Assembly (NCBI RefSeq): GCF_008312885.1
Contig: NZ_VSSO01000004.1
Span: forward strand, 124,001 to 188,000
Reading direction: 5' to 3'
Length of the DNA stretch: 64,000 nucleotides
Origin: Lolliginicoccus suaedae
Lineage (GTDB): Bacteria; Actinomycetota; Actinomycetes; Mycobacteriales; Mycobacteriaceae
Shown in pieces: positions 20,086-37,424 of the stretch. The notes beneath the pieces were generated by a model. That model searched no databases, was not told where the DNA came from, and saw only the letters and a program-made list of their open reading frames with translations. Position numbers and translations under genes: made by a program. The stretch's first letter is position 1, and the number at the start of each line of letters is the position of its first letter.

Positions 20086-20195
20086 CGTGCTCCCAGATTG
20101 ATTGGTGTGCCCAGCCGCATCGTGCCCAGCCGCATCGTGCCCAGCCGCATCGTGCCCAGCCTCATTGTGCGCGCATCCTCGTCGTGCAGCCTCAT
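20082..20195 (-). CDS. Possible 37-residue leader ORF built from repeats, coupled to folC
   Basis: A short reading frame from ATG 20195 whose TGA overlaps the folC ATG by ATGA. It encodes four MRLGT pentapeptides because it runs through 15-bp tandem repeats. GAGG lies 11 nt before the ATG, a weak ribosome site. It may be a translated leader that feeds ribosomes into folC, or an accident of the repeats. No similarity is recognised. Confidence 0.3.
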   Translation of the reverse strand: MRLHDEDARTMRLGTMRLGTMRLGTMRLGTPINLGAR

Positions 20196-20207
20196 CGCGC
20201 GGCCAGC
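20107..20207. repeat. 15-bp tandem repeat between valS and folC
   Basis: The plus-strand unit GTGCCCAGCCGCATC occurs three times exactly (20107-20151), then as a variant ending CTCATT (20152-20166), then in degenerate copies to about 20207, right up to the valS stop. On the minus strand each unit contains GGGCACGATG, resembling the real folC ribosome site and start (GGGAGCACGATG). Confidence 0.9.
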
Positions 20208-20208
20208 C

Positions 20209-22923
20209 TCACCGTGCAGCGAGCGCAGCAAGCCGCTCCCCGATGCGCTGCACCTCCTCCTCGGCGATGGCCTTGCGGGTGGTGATCTTCTCGACGACCT
20301 GCGCCGGCGCCTTGGCGAGGAATGCCTCGTTGCCGAGCTTGGCGGAGGTCTGCGCGAGCTCCTTCTCCGCGGCTGCGAGATCCTTGGCCAGGCGGCGCTT
20401 CTCTGCCTCGATGTCCACCGTTCCGGAGGTGTCGAGCTCCACCTGCAGCGTGGTCCGGCTGGTGCGCACCTCGATGGCCGCGGATGCGGTGAAGCCTTCC
20501 TCGGCCGCGGTGAGCCTCGACAGGGCCGCGATGTAGGGATGCAGCGACGTGAGGTCCGCCTGTTCGAGGCCGACGATGCGGGCGGGCACCTTCTGGCCCG
20601 GGCGCAGGCCCTGGTCGGAGCGGAACCGGCGGATCTCGGTGACGAGGTGCTGGACATCGTCGATGCGGCGGGCGGCCTGCTCGTCGCGGTCCGCGCCCAG
20701 CGTGCCGGGCCAGTCCGCGATGACGACGGATTCCTCGCCGGTGAGCTTGGTCCAGAGCGTCTCGGTGACGAACGGGATGACGGGATGCAGCAGGCGCAGC
20801 AGCGTGTCGAGGATGGTCCCGACGACGATGCGGGTGGCGGGCGCGGTGTCCTCGTCGGCGAACTGCACCTTGGCGAGCTCGAGGTACCAGTCGCAGAACT
20901 CGTCCCAGGCGAAGTGGTAGAGGGCCTCGCATGCCTTGCCGAACTCGTAGCGATCGAACGCGGCATCGACCTCGGCACGCACGTGCTCGAGGCGGTCGAG
21001 GATCCACCGGTCCGGGTCGGTGAGGGTGTCGCGGGCGGGAAGCTCGCCGGGCGCGGCGCCGTTCATCAGGGCCAGCTTGGTGGCGTTGAACAGCTTGGTG
21101 GCGAAGTTGCGGGCCGCTTGGGCATGGTCCTCGCCGACGGGCAGGTCCGCGCCGGGGTTGGCGCCGCGCGCGAGGGTGAAGCGCAGGGCATCCGCGCCGA
21201 ACCGCTCCACCCAGTCGAGCGGGTCGATGCCGTTGCCGCGGGACTTCGACATCTTGCGGCCCTGCTCATCGCGCACGAGCCCGTGGAGGAACACATCGTG
21301 GAACGGGACCTTGCCCCCGGGCGCGTGCTCGTCCTCCTCGGCGACGAACCGGCCGAACATCATCATCCGGGCGACCCAGAAGAACAGGATGTCGTAGCCG
21401 GTGACGAGCACGCTGGTGGGATAGAACTTGGCGAGCTCGTCGGTCTGCTCGGGCCAGCCCATCGTGGAGAACGGCCACAGGCCGGAGGAGAACCAGGTGT
21501 CGAGCACATCGGGATCCTGCACATAGCCCTCAGGTGCAGTCTCCCCCGGCGCGGGGCACACGACGTCGCCGTCTGGCCCGTACCAGATGGGGATGCGGTG
21601 ACCCCACCACAGCTGCCGGGAGATGCACCAGTCGTGCATATCGTCGACCCAGGAGAACCACCGGGGCTCCAAGGACTTGGGGTGGATGACGGTATCGCCA
21701 TCGCGGACGGCGTCACCGGCCATGCGCGCGAGCTCGTCCACCTTGACCCACCACTGCTTGGACAACCGGGGCTCGATGACCTCGCCGCCGCGCTCGGAGT
21801 GGCCGACGCTGTGCACGTAGGGGCGCTTCTCGGCGACCACGCGGCCCTCGGCGGCGAGCCGCTCCCGGATGCGGGCGCGGGCCTCGAACCGGTCCATGCC
21901 ATCGAACTCGGTGCCCGTGCCAGCGATGCGCGCGTGCTCGTCCATGATCGTGGGCATCGGCAAGTCGTGCCGCACGCCGAGCTCGAAGTCGTTGGGGTCG
22001 TGGGCGGGGGTGATCTTCACCGCGCCGGACCCGAAGGAGGGATCGACGTAGTCATCGGCCACGATGGGGATCTGGCGCTCGGTGATGGGGTGGTAGACGG
22101 TGGTGCCGATCAAGTGCTGGTAGCGCTCGTCGTCGGGGTGCACGGCGACGGCGGTATCACCGAGCATCGTCTCGACACGGGTGGTGGCGACGATGACGTG
22201 TGGCTCGTCGTCGTTGAGGGAGCCGTAGCGCAGCGACACCAGCTCTCCCTCGACCTCCTCGTGCTTGACCTCGATGTCGGAGATGGCGGTCTGCAGCACG
22301 GGCGACCAGTTGACCAGGCGCTCGGCGCGATAGATCAGCCCGGCGTCATAGAGCTTCTTGAAGATGGTGTGCACGGCGCGCGAGAGGCCCTCGTCGAGGG
22401 TGAAGCGCTCGCGGCCCCAGTCGACGCCGTCGCCGATGCGGCGCATCTGCTCCATGATGGTGCCGCCCGACTCGGCCTTCCACTGCCATACCCGCTCGAC
22501 GAAGGCCTCTCGGCCCATCTCGTGGCGGCTGGTGCCGGCGGCATCGAGCTGCTTCTCGACGACCATCTGGGTGGCGATGCCGGCGTGGTCCATGCCGGGC
22601 AGCCAGAGCACCTCGAAGCCCTGCATGCGCTTGCGGCGGCACAGGATGTCCATCAGGGTGTGATCGAGCGCGTGGCCCATGTGCAGGCTGCCAGTGACGT
22701 TCGGCGGCGGCAGCACGATGGAGAAGCCTGGCTTGTCGCTGCGCGGATCGGCGGTGAAGTACCCGGCGTCGACCCAGCGCTGGTACAGCTCCGCCTCCAC
22801 GGCCTGCGGCTCCCATGCCTTGGGCAGGTCCACGGCGGGCCGGGATCCGTCCGGGCTGGATCCTTGCGGGCTCGTGCCGCTGGGGGTGGCGGTGTCCTGG
22901 GGGTCTGGCGCTGCACTGGTCAC
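20209..22923 (-). CDS. valS: Valyl-tRNA synthetase
   Basis: A class I aminoacyl-tRNA synthetase of 904 residues from GTG 22923. It has the HIGH-type motif HMGH and the KMSKS motif in [17 protein letters not shown]1 editing domain lies between them, with the anticodon-binding domain and a C-terminal coiled coil (about 840-904) after. It leads the valS-folC-DUF4233-ndk set. No T-box-like leader was found upstream. Confidence 0.97.
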
Positions 22924-23009: not shown

Positions 23010-23129
23010 GGGGAAATCGCGATCGGGTTCCTCGTCGCCAGGCACAGAGCCACTGCGGTCACCCCGGCCATGCTCGGCGGCATCGGCGCGCTCACCACCG
23101 CGAGCATCCTGCTCGCAACGGTGCGGTGA
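23010..23129 (+). pseudogene. Possible C-terminal remnant of a membrane protein
   Basis: Between valS and the PLP-enzyme operon, a plus-strand frame ending in TGA at 23129 reads as two hydrophobic segments (EIAIGFLVARH and MLGGIGALTTASILLATVR). It resembles the end of a transporter, but upstream residues in this frame are not protein-like and no start or ribosome site is evident. It may be a decayed gene end or coincidence. Confidence 0.2.
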
Positions 23130-24461
23130 TCACATCATCGCGAGCTCGGCACCCGCGGCACGAGCACTCGACAGCCCACCCTCGAGCACGAACGTCGCCT
23201 GGTGGCCGAGCCGCACCAGCATCGCCGCGAGCTTCACGGAGATCTCCCCATCCGCGCACACCAGCAGCACCTCGGTCTCGGGACCGAATGGCATGCCTGC
23301 CCGCAGGTTCTCCACGAACACATCGTCGGGGATGTTGATCGAGCCTGGCAGGTGGCTGAGGCCGAAGGCATAGCGGGCGCGCACGTCCACGATGAGCGGA
23401 TGCTTCTCCGCACGATGCTCCTCGATCTGGTGGGGGCCCACGCGCGGCACCGCGTCCACGTCCTCGGCGCTCACCGCCGCTAGCCCTAGCGTGCTCGCCG
23501 GCTGGCCGAGGAGATCGGGCCTGCGTGAGCGCACGTAGCTCATGTATGGCTCGATGCGGTCGCACACCAGGAACACAGCGGTGCGCCGCTCCGTGGAGCC
23601 GGCCTCGCCGAGCTTCCGGTCCTCCTCCCGCAGGTACTCCAACGCTCCGTGGTAGGCGGCACCGCTTGTCGGTCCGCCGAGGATGCCACTGCGGCGGATG
23701 AGCTGGGCCGTTCCCTCGAGAGCCTCGCTCGAGCCGATCTCCGTGATCACGTCGAACTCGGCAGGGTCGTAGAGCCCGACCTCCTGCAGTTCATCGACCG
23801 TCCGGATGCCCGGGATGAAGTCTGGCTTGCGCACGACGAGACCCACTGCGCGGACGTCGGGACGCGATGCCCGCAGCGCACGGATAATGCCGGTCGAGGA
23901 CCCTGCCGTGCCGACGGTGGCGATGAAATAGTCCGGCGCCGCGCCACCGAGATCCTCGATGATCTCCGGCCCGGTGTCCTGGGTGTGGATCCCGGAGTTG
24001 TCGTCGTTGTAGTACTGGTCGGTGTGGACCACGGAGTCGTCACCGGCCATCTCGCGGTAGATCACGCTGCGGGGATCATCGACGCACCCGCGGTCGAACG
24101 ATTCCTGCTGCCCGGGCAGCTCATCGATCCGTGCCCCGATGAGCGCGAGCATGTCCTTGATCTCGGGGACCTTCATGCGATTGGTGACGCACCGGAACGG
24201 CACGCCGTTCATGCTCGCGATCACCGAGAGCGCCTTCGCGGTGTTTCCGCTCGACAATTCGACTATTGACTGGCCATTGGCCTTGATGTCCTCGATGCTG
24301 CTGCGGACTAGTCCCCACGCGGTGCGGTCCTTCACCGAGCCAAATGGATTCATCATCTCAAGCTTGGCGTAGAGGTCGATATGGGCGAGACCGTGAACGG
24401 CGGGGCTGATCCTGACCAATGGCGTGTTGCCGATGACGTCGAGGATGCTGTCGTACTTCAT
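23130..24461 (-). CDS. Cysteine-synthase-like PLP enzyme fused to a rhodanese domain
   Basis: A 443-residue two-domain protein. Residues 1 to about 325 form a fold-II PLP enzyme of the cysteine synthase/cystathionine beta-synthase type. The PLP lysine is in NPFGSVKDRTAWG, the substrate loop is SSGNTAKA, and VGTAGSSTG and GPTSGAAY are the phosphate and C-terminal loops. Residues about 345-435 form a rhodanese domain with an active-site cysteine in VCADGEIS. ATG 24461 has GGGAGGG upstream and overlaps the preceding gene's stop (ATGA). Similar enzymes make diaminopropionate-type precursors with a partner decarboxylase in siderophore loci, but no siderophore synthase is adjacent here. The product is unknown. 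Confidence 0.8.
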   Translation of the reverse strand: MKYDSILDVIGNTPLVRISPAVHGLAHIDLYAKLEMMNPFGSVKDRTAWGLVRSSIEDIKANGQSIVELSSGNTAKALSVIASMNGVPFRCVTNRMKVPEIKDMLALIGARIDELPGQQESFDRGCVDDPRSVIYREMAGDDSVVHTDQYYNDDNSGIHTQDTGPEIIEDLGGAAPDYFIATVGTAGSSTGIIRALRASRPDVRAVGLVVRKPDFIPGIRTVDELQEVGLYDPAEFDVITEIGSSEALEGTAQLIRRSGILGGPTSGAAYHGALEYLREEDRKLGEAGSTERRTAVFLVCDRIEPYMSYVRSRRPDLLGQPASTLGLAAVSAEDVDAVPRVGPHQIEEHRAEKHPLIVDVRARYAFGLSHLPGSINIPDDVFVENLRAGMPFGPETEVLLVCADGEISVKLAAMLVRLGHQATFVLEGGLSSARAAGAELAMM

Positions 24462-25975
24462 GAGTTTCCCTCCCCTGGCTCGCAGGCCTCGTGCACGGGC
24501 TCCGGCCAGTACCGGCCGTCCTCCCACCAGCGCATCGGCTCCATGCTGCCGCGTGGCGTGACCTGCGCCGCGATCACGTGATGGCTATCGAGGTCAGCGA
24601 GATAGCCGGCGGTGTTGACGAAAGCGAGGATGTCGCCCGCCCGCGGCATGGCCCGAAAACTGATCGCGCGACGGGTGATGAGGCCAGACTCGGAATCACG
24701 GTTCCCCACCAGGAATCCAGAGCCTGGTCCCGGCACATCCGCATCGGCACTGCCCGGGACCCGCACCAGCAGCGGATCCATCATGACACCGAACCGCTCG
24801 GTCCTGAGATCATCGGAGGACGCATCGACCTCGATCGTAGCACCACTGGACCCACCTCCCGAGACGCGCAGCACGCGTACGAGCGTCAGTCCGGCCTGGT
24901 CCACGAGCCACCGCCCGGGCTCGATCCACAGCTCGAGCATCGAGTCCCGCAGAATGCGGCCAAAAGATGCCCCGGACGATTCCTGCCGCTGCCCGAGCAG
25001 ATCATCGAGGTACCTCGCCCCGACCGCGGTGCGCTGCGCTGGATAGAGGCTCGCAGCCCCGCGCAGCTTGCCCTTCTCGGCGCGAAGGCCGTAGTGGAAG
25101 GATTGCCAGGTGAACGGCGCGCGCCGACCGAGCGCGGAATCGATCAACGCAGTGGTGAATGCATCCCACTGGCCCGGGTCAGCCACATACGTCACGCCAA
25201 AGCCTCCGCCGATGGAAATGACATCGGGAGAGAAGCCCGCGGCCCGCGCCTCGCGCAGCACCCGGAGGCATCCATCGAGCGCCAGCGCCTTCTCGGGAAT
25301 GCCCACCGTATCCAGGTGAAAGGACAATCCCCTCAGACTGAGATCGCGATGCCGGGAAAGCTCCGCCGCGATCGCCGGGAAATCCCTCTCCGCGAAACCG
25401 GATCGCGAAGGACGGATCTTGACCGGCGCGCCCGTATCGACGAACGACGAGAAGCGCAGCAGGACATCCAGGCGGCCGGCGAGCGCACCGGCCTCGCGCA
25501 GTTCCTCCAGCGAGCTGACCACCACCGTGCACCCGGCCCTCGCGGCGAGCCACAGCATCTCCGGCGTCTTCACGCCGCCCACCAGGATCGAGCGTCCAGG
25601 GACGCCCGCCGAGAGCGCATCGGTCATCGAGGCCAGCGAGCACGCGAGGACTCCGGCCCCCTCTGCCGAGACCTGCCGGATGACCGTCGTGGACGGGCAT
25701 GCCTGCGCGCCGAACCGGATCGCGCCGGAAACACCATGTCGATCCAGGACCGCCCGCGCCGCAGCGATATTCCCGGCGACCTGCTCCGGCAGCAGGATCG
25801 TCAGCGGCGAGCCGAGCGCCGCCACCCATCGATGGACTTCCACCGGGCGGGCGAGCACTGCACGGGCGTGCGTGCCCACCAGCGGCTCGAGCGTCGGCAC
25901 CGCACCGGCCCCAGCAGTCGTGGATACCTCGCCGTTCACTGTACGAACGACCGGTTCCTGAGCTGGCAAGGACAT
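24458..25975 (-). CDS. Y4yA-type fold-III PLP decarboxylase-like protein lacking the PLP lysine
   Basis: A 505-residue protein of the alanine-racemase-fold decarboxylase group (diaminopimelate/ornithine decarboxylase relatives), closest to the Y4yA type. Family landmarks are FHLDTVG, the glycine-rich phosphate loop SIGGGFGVTYV, HYGLR, and EPGRWLVDQAG. At the position of the invariant (Y/F)AxKAN motif it reads FGAQACPS, so the Schiff-base lysine is glutamine (CAG) and the asparagine is cysteine. It may have lost decarboxylase activity or changed chemistry. It is translationally coupled to the downstream synthase-rhodanese gene. Start ATG 25975 is chosen because further upstream the frame is antisense to the pirin gene. 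Confidence 0.75.
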   Translation of the reverse strand: MSLPAQEPVVRTVNGEVSTTAGAGAVPTLEPLVGTHARAVLARPVEVHRWVAALGSPLTILLPEQVAGNIAAARAVLDRHGVSGAIRFGAQACPSTTVIRQVSAEGAGVLACSLASMTDALSAGVPGRSILVGGVKTPEMLWLAARAGCTVVVSSLEELREAGALAGRLDVLLRFSSFVDTGAPVKIRPSRSGFAERDFPAIAAELSRHRDLSLRGLSFHLDTVGIPEKALALDGCLRVLREARAAGFSPDVISIGGGFGVTYVADPGQWDAFTTALIDSALGRRAPFTWQSFHYGLRAEKGKLRGAASLYPAQRTAVGARYLDDLLGQRQESSGASFGRILRDSMLELWIEPGRWLVDQAGLTLVRVLRVSGGGSSGATIEVDASSDDLRTERFGVMMDPLLVRVPGSADADVPGPGSGFLVGNRDSESGLITRRAISFRAMPRAGDILAFVNTAGYLADLDSHHVIAAQVTPRGSMEPMRWWEDGRYWPEPVHEACEPGEGNS

Positions 25976-26210
25976 CTGACTCGCTTTCGTGCGTGAGCGC
26001 CGGGGCACTCTCAGCATAGGACGATCCGGGAAAGAGCCACGAACGCCATGTGGGCCGTCTACCAAATCGAAACTCGCCACCACGTGCGGCCACGCGGTCC
26101 ATGCGCGCGGTCCACGCCCGCGACCCGAGTCCCGGAGAAGCCTGGGCGGTCGCGCGGTAGCCTGATCGAACAGCACTCGCACGGTTGACCACGCACCCGA
26201 CGGAGACGCC

Positions 26211-36361: not shown

Positions 36362-36372
36362 TATCGCCGGAC

Positions 36373-36434
36373 GAGCCGAGCCGAGCCGAGCCAGCCGAGC
36401 CGAGCCAGCCGACCCGAGCCGAGCCAGCCGAGCC
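36373..36434. repeat. GAGCC microsatellite
   Basis: About 62 nt built from GAGCC pentamers with AGCC interruptions, ending exactly at the stop codon of the DUF2804 gene. It is non-coding and would be in the 3' UTR of that gene. Confidence 0.85.
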
Positions 36435-37424
36435 TCACCAGCGGGCCCGGTGGTCCTCCACCACTCCCCTGCCACGGACCTGGTGCACCACTCCATCCGG
36501 CGAGCGGAATGTTCCCTCGAACCAGCCGAAGGGCTGGACGAACTTGCTGGCGATCACACCCGCCTCGAGATGCTCCCTGCGCTGGCCCTCGGGGTGGAAG
36601 ACAAGATCAACCGCTCCGCCGGCGGTGCGCAGGCGCCAGGGCTCGAGCGGTGCCGATCGATCGAGCTCGAAGACAGCCTGGGGCAGTGGCACGATCCCGC
36701 CTTGCCACCAGACCGCGTTCTCGAGCCCATCGAGGAAGTGGGCCACCAGGTTGATCGCGATGGGCTGGCCCGATTCCGTGGTGCCGTCGAGGCTTGCCCA
36801 GTTCCACAGCGTCTCGCGGGGCGGGTAGCCGAGGGTGAGGTCGAGCGAGGCGCGTCCGGCGAGATCAACGACGGCGTCTCTGGTGCGCGCGCTCCCCGAT
36901 GCGGCGAGCCCGGCGAACTTGCAAGTGTGATGGAAGGGCCTTCCGGGCGCCGAGCTGATTGCAGAGATCGCGAGCGGCTCGGTAGTCCCTTCGATGGTGG
37001 CTGACAGTTCCAGGTTGCGCCCGTGGTGATGCAGGTGCCACGCGCCACGGTCATGGTGGATGCGCCATGTGCTCCGCCCGCGCCCGAGCGTCCATTCGAC
37101 GCGCCAGTCCGGCGCGAACGAGCGCGGGAACCCAGCGGGGATGAGGATCTTGTCCTCGGTGAGCTGCCCGGTACGGCGGTCGTGCACGTAGCAGAAGCCG
37201 GTCGCGGTATGGCCGGCGTCGACGATCGCGAATCCGGCCGCGGCCTCCTCGGCGAAGAAGCCCGCATAGATCCACGCCTTGCGCTGGGCGCGGCGGCGCC
37301 ACGGCTGGCCGCGATCCCATTCAGTGGTGGAGAGGTCCGGGATGGGCCCGAGGTAGCGACCGTCGAGCGCGCCGGCACGCTCGCCTGGTCGGGGCAACCG
37401 GTCGGGCGCGGGCGGCAGGTGCAT
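36435..37424 (-). CDS. DUF2804 family protein
   Basis: A 329-residue soluble protein with no signal peptide. Features include AWIYAGFFAEEAAAGFAIVDAGHTA near the N-terminus, repeated beta-rich WRIHHDRGAWHLHHHG, and a LWNWASLDGTTESGQPIAINL core. These match the DUF2804 pattern of beta-sandwich proteins that resemble lipocalin/hydroxysteroid-type domains. Function unknown. It is 2 nt downstream of the small GNAT gene. DUF assignment is from memory of the motif style, so moderate. Confidence 0.65.
   Translation of the reverse strand: MHLPPAPDRLPRPGERAGALDGRYLGPIPDLSTTEWDRGQPWRRRAQRKAWIYAGFFAEEAAAGFAIVDAGHTATGFCYVHDRRTGQLTEDKILIPAGFPRSFAPDWRVEWTLGRGRSTWRIHHDRGAWHLHHHGRNLELSATIEGTTEPLAISAISSAPGRPFHHTCKFAGLAASGSARTRDAVVDLAGRASLDLTLGYPPRETLWNWASLDGTTESGQPIAINLVAHFLDGLENAVWWQGGIVPLPQAVFELDRSAPLEPWRLRTAGGAVDLVFHPEGQRREHLEAGVIASKFVQPFGWFEGTFRSPDGVVHQVRGRGVVEDHRARW

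Follow-up and report, generated by a model that had tools for sequence, protein, structure and literature searches.

The P0001/P0002 gene pair

The stretch of DNA analysed here (the window: 64,000 nucleotides of Lolliginicoccus suaedae, contig NZ_VSSO01000004.1, positions 124,001 to 188,000) carries a two-gene islet in which one gene, P0001, codes for a relative of the fold-III decarboxylases dependent on pyridoxal 5'-phosphate (PLP) whose cofactor lysine is replaced by glutamine. The second gene, P0002, codes for a cysteine-synthase-like enzyme with a rhodanese domain (CysK/rhodanese). P0001 is read on the minus strand from an ATG at 25975 to a stop codon ending at 24458, and the start of P0002 lies inside this stop in an ATGA overlap. 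The same overlap is present in an ortholog of Hoyosella rhizosphaerae (L067), and translational coupling of P0001 and P0002 seems likely from this arrangement. Table 1 gives the features of the islet, along with the operon carrying the Hoyosella ortholog.

Table 1. Features of the islet (window coordinates) and of the related operon at locus L067
Feature	Position	Strand	Basis
Two-gene islet, ~3.06 kb, P0001 and P0002 only	23128..26188		blastn; missing from this position in sister genomes G001 and G003
P0001, fold-III PLP-decarboxylase-like pseudoenzyme candidate	24458..25975	minus	505 aa; open reading frame, profile, ortholog alignment, predicted fold
P0001 codon 91, CAG (Gln91), PLP-lysine position	25703..25705	minus	Lys in 79/79 orthologs and 144/144 other loci
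P0001 HLDT 220-223, retained	25307..25318	minus	loci reading, near-invariant columns
P0001 GGGFG 256-260, retained	25196..25210	minus	ortholog alignment
P0001 EPGR 352-355, retained	24911..24922	minus	loci reading
P0001 codon 427, Asp at catalytic Cys position of CLExD loop	24695..24697	minus	Cys in 79/79 orthologs
P0001 codon 431, Gly at conserved Asp of CLExD loop	24683..24685	minus	Asp in 79/79 orthologs
P0001 NTAGY 454-458 (including Tyr458), retained	24602..24616	minus	loci reading
P0002, cysteine-synthase-like (PALP) enzyme with C-terminal rhodanese domain	23130..24461	minus	profile search, relatives
P0002 Lys44 in NPFGSVKDR, retained	24330..24332	minus	Lys in 82/82 relatives
P0002 Cys402, retained	23256..23258	minus	Cys in 82/82 relatives
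Apparent metallophore operon (Hoyosella rhizosphaerae)	L067 2954-13127	-	gene families

Replacement of the PLP lysine

The relatives with which P0001 was compared came from whole-genome searches and from a scan of a species-genome collection by two conserved peptide patterns, neither of which covers the lysine site (a relative in which both had changed would escape the scan). The scan matched 308 stretches, 268 of which encode a relative, and the best 80 were kept; 79 of these and the window protein make up the 80 rows of the ortholog alignment (L112, which has an internal stop, is not included, and L090, L095 and L111 were cut back to stops lying close to their ends).

At site 91, lysine is found in 144 of the 145 loci read (representing 133 distinct matched sequences; matches without an associated locus are not part of this count) and glutamine solely in the window protein. 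All 79 orthologs have the lysine, as do six additional loci; loss of the lysine was not seen in the wider group. A first-pass annotation of the window had claimed that the cofactor lysine is replaced by glutamine in a frame that stays intact over 505 codons; both statements are borne out, the frame being free of internal stops. The IRFGAQACPS segment lies on the strand ending in the PLP lysine, and the alignment that this annotation had suggested, with decarboxylase chains including diaminopimelate decarboxylases (DapDC; four solved chains) and with the orthologs, places Gln91 opposite the PLP lysine throughout. Because the GAQACPS stretch aligns in frame with the AHKANRS of relatives, no local frameshift is required. 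A sequencing error or local frameshift behind GAQACPS can be ruled out on account of this in-frame alignment and of the 34 further near-invariant residues that are replaced in the same protein (see below), and explanations by chance or by a single-base error do not fit the changes read in P0001.

The same annotation had drawn attention to a cysteine in place of asparagine near the lysine site. This holds against the close orthologs (asparagine at position 93 in 78/79), but not against the DapDC chain 1knw (Escherichia coli LysA), which has cysteine there as well. In the aligned sequences Cys93 is therefore unusual against close orthologs only.

Another family-wide lysine as PLP anchor can be rejected, since the candidates K136 and K229 are also present in all 79 lysine-bearing orthologs and are thus no replacements. 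Three further lysines (K186, K301 and K303) are not shared across the family in the ortholog alignment. It could be argued that P0001 is still a PLP enzyme whose Schiff base is now formed by Lys186, a residue of a flexible loop, as the orthologs mostly have leucine there (56/79) and the loop is predicted with low confidence (block mean predicted local distance difference test score, pLDDT, of 61). The Cys/Asp loop on which decarboxylation depends has gone as well, however, and we regard such a substitution as very improbable.

Wider loss of catalytic residues

The lysine is only one of many conserved residues to have changed. Near-invariant columns, defined as those at least 95% conserved in the 79 orthologs (which are 38-46% identical to P0001), number 136, and at these P0001 shows 35 replacements and one deletion, with 100 residues retained; by leave-one-out comparison, the orthologs themselves have a median of 1 and a maximum of 10 replacements. 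The departures of P0001 include K91Q, H90A, N93C, D110L, E116S, T133G, P135V and H395F and, further along the protein, C427D, L428S, D431G, M460A and F462L. C427D, L428S and D431G fall in the CLExD loop, whose cysteine is, from work on ornithine decarboxylase (ODC) and DapDC, the second catalytic residue of fold-III decarboxylases: cysteine and aspartate have given way to Asp427 and Gly431, with Glu429 between them retained. As read from the alignment, the catalytic loss is wider than the lysine alone, the Cys/Asp loop being gone as well. Since both are lost, decarboxylation through a Schiff base should be impossible, and the loss of ordinary PLP decarboxylation by P0001 is supported more convincingly than it would be by the lysine replacement taken singly. 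P0001 would accordingly be inactive as a decarboxylase.

The changes are not evenly spread. Among the near-invariant residues, 20/50 are replaced on the active-site face and 15/85 elsewhere (Fisher p 0.0076); this face, comprising the strand ends of the predicted model and three C-terminal loops, was drawn after the list of replacements was known, and the p-value serves as a guide only. The first-pass annotation was also right that motifs beyond the lysine site are kept: GGGFG, HLDT and EPGR are present, and so is NTAGY. In this decarboxylase family the glycine-rich GGGFG is the phosphate-binding loop, the histidine of HLDT stacks on the PLP ring, and the tyrosine of NTAGY is a PLP contact.

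Predicted fold and family membership

The barrel domain of P0001 scores 67.1 bits with Orn_Arg_deC_N (PF02784), for which the cut-off is 23.4. Among NCBIfam models lysA comes first for P0001, its 77.5 bits being far under the model cut-off of 297.9. AlphaFold2 models were obtained for P0001 (mean pLDDT 84.2, predicted template modelling score, pTM, 0.85) and for the lysine-bearing ortholog of locus L067 (mean pLDDT 89.1, pTM 0.89). Because the best matches of the P0001 model to PDB structures in a Foldseek search are diaminopimelate decarboxylases (3vab_A first, with a template modelling score of 0.76 by target length), the predicted fold is that of active decarboxylases.

By profile and fold P0001 is thus of the PF02784 type, but two of the defining features, the Schiff-base lysine and the catalytic cysteine, are missing from its sequence. 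It is these two failed features that keep us from filing it as an active fold-III decarboxylase, and they set it apart from LysA and ornithine decarboxylase (class 2, PF02784), which it otherwise resembles by Pfam and Foldseek matches; identity over the 50 listed structural alignments of the P0001 model is 13-21%. The loss of catalytic residues together with a retained predicted fold suggests the pattern of a pseudoenzyme.

Pseudoenzymes are already known as a kind, of which P0001 would be another variant. Antizyme inhibitor is a dead homolog of ODC, LCB1 is a subunit lacking the lysine, and catalytically dead prozymes exist. A dead paralog of deoxyhypusine synthase has been described as well (PMC3663545). 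The likeness of P0001 to antizyme inhibitor 1, whose chains 3btn and 4zgz match the family profile, lies in a fold retained without catalysis. The targets of antizyme inhibitor and prozymes, however, are antizyme or a close paralog that is active, whereas the candidate partner of P0001 belongs to another fold class. Lysine-less members of the decarboxylase family look rare (one among 145 loci).

The coupled partner P0002

In P0002 the motifs NPFGSVKDR, ELSSGNTA, GTAGSS and GPT are retained at their invariant positions. Lys44, the PLP lysine, is unchanged, and Cys402 occupies the position of the rhodanese catalytic cysteine; the rhodanese loop around it shows two changes, P403A and V404D. No claim is made that P0001 has changed more than P0002 as a whole (the severity of replacements, scored by BLOSUM62, does not differ significantly between the two, Mann-Whitney p 0.38); the argument concerns which residues have changed. 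The positions of the changes suggest that P0001 lost its chemistry and that P0002 did not, and this contrast is our main argument.

The first-pass annotation had proposed that P0001 became a regulator or scaffold for its coupled partner, or uses another chemistry. Because the active site of the partner appears intact, the former role is plausible; another chemistry is possible. It could take the form of a repurposed pocket, in which the phosphate cup binds PLP, pyridoxamine 5'-phosphate (PMP) or a different phosphorylated ligand, no Schiff base being formed, or in which Cys93 and Cys112 accept sulfur from the rhodanese domain. The phosphate cup is indeed retained while the catalytic groups are replaced, N93C and A112C were both gained at neighbouring strand ends on the active-site face as defined above, and P0002 supplies a rhodanese domain with Cys402. 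Yet the two cysteines are not diagnostic, cysteine being found at 93 in DapDC 1knw and at 112 in the mycobacterial DapDC 1hkv; a repurposed pocket is unlikely in our judgement. Also improbable is a further-reaching version, according to which a decarboxylase gutted of its catalytic groups but with its phosphate cup has become an obligate subunit, no longer using PLP, of a cysteine-synthase/rhodanese enzyme. In the boldest form of this reading P0001 would be a sulfur acceptor via Cys93/Cys112 within a two-protein sulfur-transfer device derived from a broken metallophore operon.

The proposed parent operon in relatives

The closest counterparts of P0001 are the CysK/rhodanese-associated decarboxylases of Hoyosella, Rhodococcus, Nocardia, Streptomyces, Micromonospora and Actinoplanes (clade A, including the L067 ortholog), which share with it the gene order, 38-46% identity and the motifs of the fold. 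Unlike P0001, they have the lysine, the cysteine and the aspartate in 79/79 cases, and their loci carry a SufS-like third gene (82/82), absent from the window. The order decarboxylase, CysK/rhodanese, SufS-like is found at all 82 named loci (L066-L147), and this core trio is spread over Streptomyces, Nocardia, Micromonospora, Actinoplanes and others. Within the stretches fetched for these loci, 58 match a methyltransferase query and 15 an ATP-grasp query.

In Hoyosella rhizosphaerae the trio belongs to an apparent metallophore operon, where an ATP-grasp ligase (resembling dapdiamide A synthase, with a score under the model cut-off), a major facilitator superfamily transporter and a methyltransferase are also present. 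Divergent from this operon is a gene for an iron/metal-type ATP-binding cassette (ABC) substrate-binding protein, with permease-like and ATPase-like neighbours. Metal-type genes flank the trio at two other loci as well, CobW with an ArsR-type regulator at L114 and a ZnuA-like protein at L088, and we infer that the parent operon encoded a metallophore-like pathway. The zinc-type neighbours at these two ortholog loci and the metal-type ABC protein by the L067 operon recall the [S,S]-ethylenediaminedisuccinate ([S,S]-EDDS, aes) zincophore of Amycolatopsis japonicum; identity of the parent pathway with aes is not claimed. Literature searched on the operon, on Y4yA, on the EDDS comparison and on PLP proteins lacking the lysine yielded no account of a decarboxylase-CysK/rhodanese-SufS-like operon.

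The SufS-like gene of the operon was not found in the window, and the window's own genome gave only a 40% match in a search that recovered the exact gene in the Hoyosella rhizosphaerae genome; matches of a similar level were obtained in the two sister genomes (40% in G001, 39% in G003). The ATP-grasp gene had no match in the own genome either, in a search run without a positive control; this says little, as no more than 15/82 named loci match the gene.

One ortholog outside the alignment, at the contig end of Streptomyces sp. uw30 (L112 2-1456), has a stop at codon 429 of its 485-codon matched frame, and this copy is possibly broken or affected by a sequencing fault.

Ancestry of P0001 and related clades

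Two phylogenetic trees of P0001 were built, a quick one with 21 clade-A, 10 group-B and 8 group-C rows chosen for spread, and a careful one of 32 rows (the window, 21 clade A, 10 group B) with group C left out. In the careful tree P0001 groups with the Hoyosella, Rhodococcus and Millisia rows (support 100/99); an approximately unbiased (AU) test did not reject a tree holding the 21 clade-A rows together without the window (p 0.174), P0001 being on a long branch.

Group C stands apart from clade A, group B and the window (support 95 in the quick tree) and is SbnH/Y4yA-like as judged by its motifs. Its loci resemble that of P0001 in combining a fold-III decarboxylase with a CysK-like gene, an association also known for SbnH (staphyloferrin B), which occurs with an SbnA/CysK-like gene. 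They differ in that the CysK-like neighbour, where matched, aligns to the PALP part of P0002 only, and in that the lysine is retained. The SbnH structure 6knh_A ranks 49 of the 50 Foldseek matches listed for the P0001 model, and Y4yA-annotated proteins are roughly 30% identical to P0001 among the matches listed. Group B is a second decarboxylase clade in the P0001 family, of the AHKVN type (L011, L032, L033 and L054-L065); at three of its loci, L011, L032 and L033, it adjoins a diverged CysK/rhodanese gene with 43-44% identity to P0002.

Sister genomes and the islet border

In the two sister genomes the flanks are about 86-90% identical to the window in nucleotides, apart from one 105-base stretch at 75-77%, the match ending at 23127 and restarting at 26208 or 26189. 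The islet so delimited lies between valS, assigned by family search, and a pirin gene, assigned by Pfam. P0001 was not found elsewhere in G001 or G003 at E values up to 1e-20, and P0002 had no match above 35% identity in either. Hoyosella rhizosphaerae (G002) has a valS-pirin locus without the islet and carries the full operon at another site.

At the border of the islet (window 23020-23129) lies the remnant of a small membrane-protein-like gene. The same gene is intact in G001 (L171 7767-8126) as an open reading frame of 119 codons between valS and pirin, in comparison with which about 200 internal bases of the window copy are gone and its start is altered.

Maintenance or decay of P0001

Taken together, we favour, at about even probability, the explanation that P0001 is a pseudoenzyme kept, once its operon had broken up, as a non-catalytic companion of a CysK/rhodanese enzyme that is still active. 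The ancestor of P0001 would have been the fold-III PLP decarboxylase in a metallophore-like operon (decarboxylase, CysK/rhodanese, SufS-like and more genes). This operon would then have broken up, with the SufS-like gene now missing in this genome and the pair left as an islet, and P0001 would have ceased to decarboxylate: it lacks both the Schiff-base lysine and, from the other half of the active site, the Cys/Asp loop. The predicted fold and the phosphate cup persist, in an open frame overlapping that of a partner with intact PLP active-site motifs. Less certainly, P0001 may be expressed and kept because it binds, stabilises or modulates P0002, or as an obligate subunit.

The alternative of a relic in decay, in which the pathway was lost, both genes drift and P0001 stays open by chance or for the passage of ribosomes to the P0002 start, is less probable in our view, though it is the rival we take most seriously. 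The SufS-like gene of the operon is missing, both genes are on long branches with a similar share of departures (p 0.14), the pair is absent from the sister genomes, and the ATGA overlap is common to P0001/P0002 and the L067 ortholog. Translational coupling alone could select against stops in P0001. Reaching the observed near-invariant replacements by neutral drift would need about 220 substitutions, and in simulations of such drift (400 runs per scheme, indels ignored and full neutrality assumed) 0.5% of the frames stayed free of stops under a uniform scheme and 4.5% under a GC-keeping one, so that drift-only runs do still leave an intact frame at times. Against decay stand the 505 codons without a stop, the 100/136 near-invariant residues retained (including the glycine loop, HLDT, EPGR and the tyrosine), the clustering of changes on the active-site face rather than an even spread, and the unchanged PLP site of the partner. 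The intact frame thus favours selection on the P0001 protein, without proof. The earlier claim that P0001 is not a case of simple decay gains from the rarity of stop-free frames under drift and remains unproven, given the very long branch and the single copy: no relative closer than 46% identity came out of 1,258 genome slots (repeats included) or the best 80 of 268 loci, so that in these the altered form is represented by P0001 alone.

Several observations weigh against retention of P0001 beside an active partner. P0001 is a singleton, with no second lysine-less member among the loci read. Its terminal branch measures 1.69 (0.18-0.54 in neighbour rows), a length that decay would also give. 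The branch of P0002 is long as well (0.99, with 0.08-0.30 in the Hoyosella, Rhodococcus and Millisia rows of a quick tree from which L006 was dropped for its incomplete sequence), and P0002 departs at 37/199 near-invariant columns (orthologs: median 2, maximum 10). Overall departures are thus similar in the two proteins (35/135 in P0001, 37/199 in P0002, Fisher p 0.14), and both may drift; that both genes are on fast branches fits a release from the old pathway. A contact between P0001 and P0002 and the expression of P0001 are themselves proposals, of lesser certainty than the loss of catalysis. No active close paralog for a prozyme-type heterodimer was found in the genome, where the sole other PF02784 match is LysA-like, has its lysine and is 28% identical to P0001 over residues 45-264; a heterodimer with an active same-clade paralog is rejected within this genome on that ground.

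If P0001 is kept for a purpose, it would show how two biosynthetic enzymes can survive the loss of their pathway and give rise to a sulfur enzyme under regulation or on a scaffold, and it would offer a clean test case, having a partner with an intact active site and sister genomes without the islet. As a relic, it would be a record of how a metallophore-type operon fell apart in this genus.

Other features of the window

Two tandem arrays were noted elsewhere in the window. The first (20107-20220) consists of 4.3 copies of a 15-base unit, flanked on one side by the beginning of folC and on the other by the end of valS, both of which genes were confirmed, and the second (36366-36449) is a low-complexity array of the CGAGC type.

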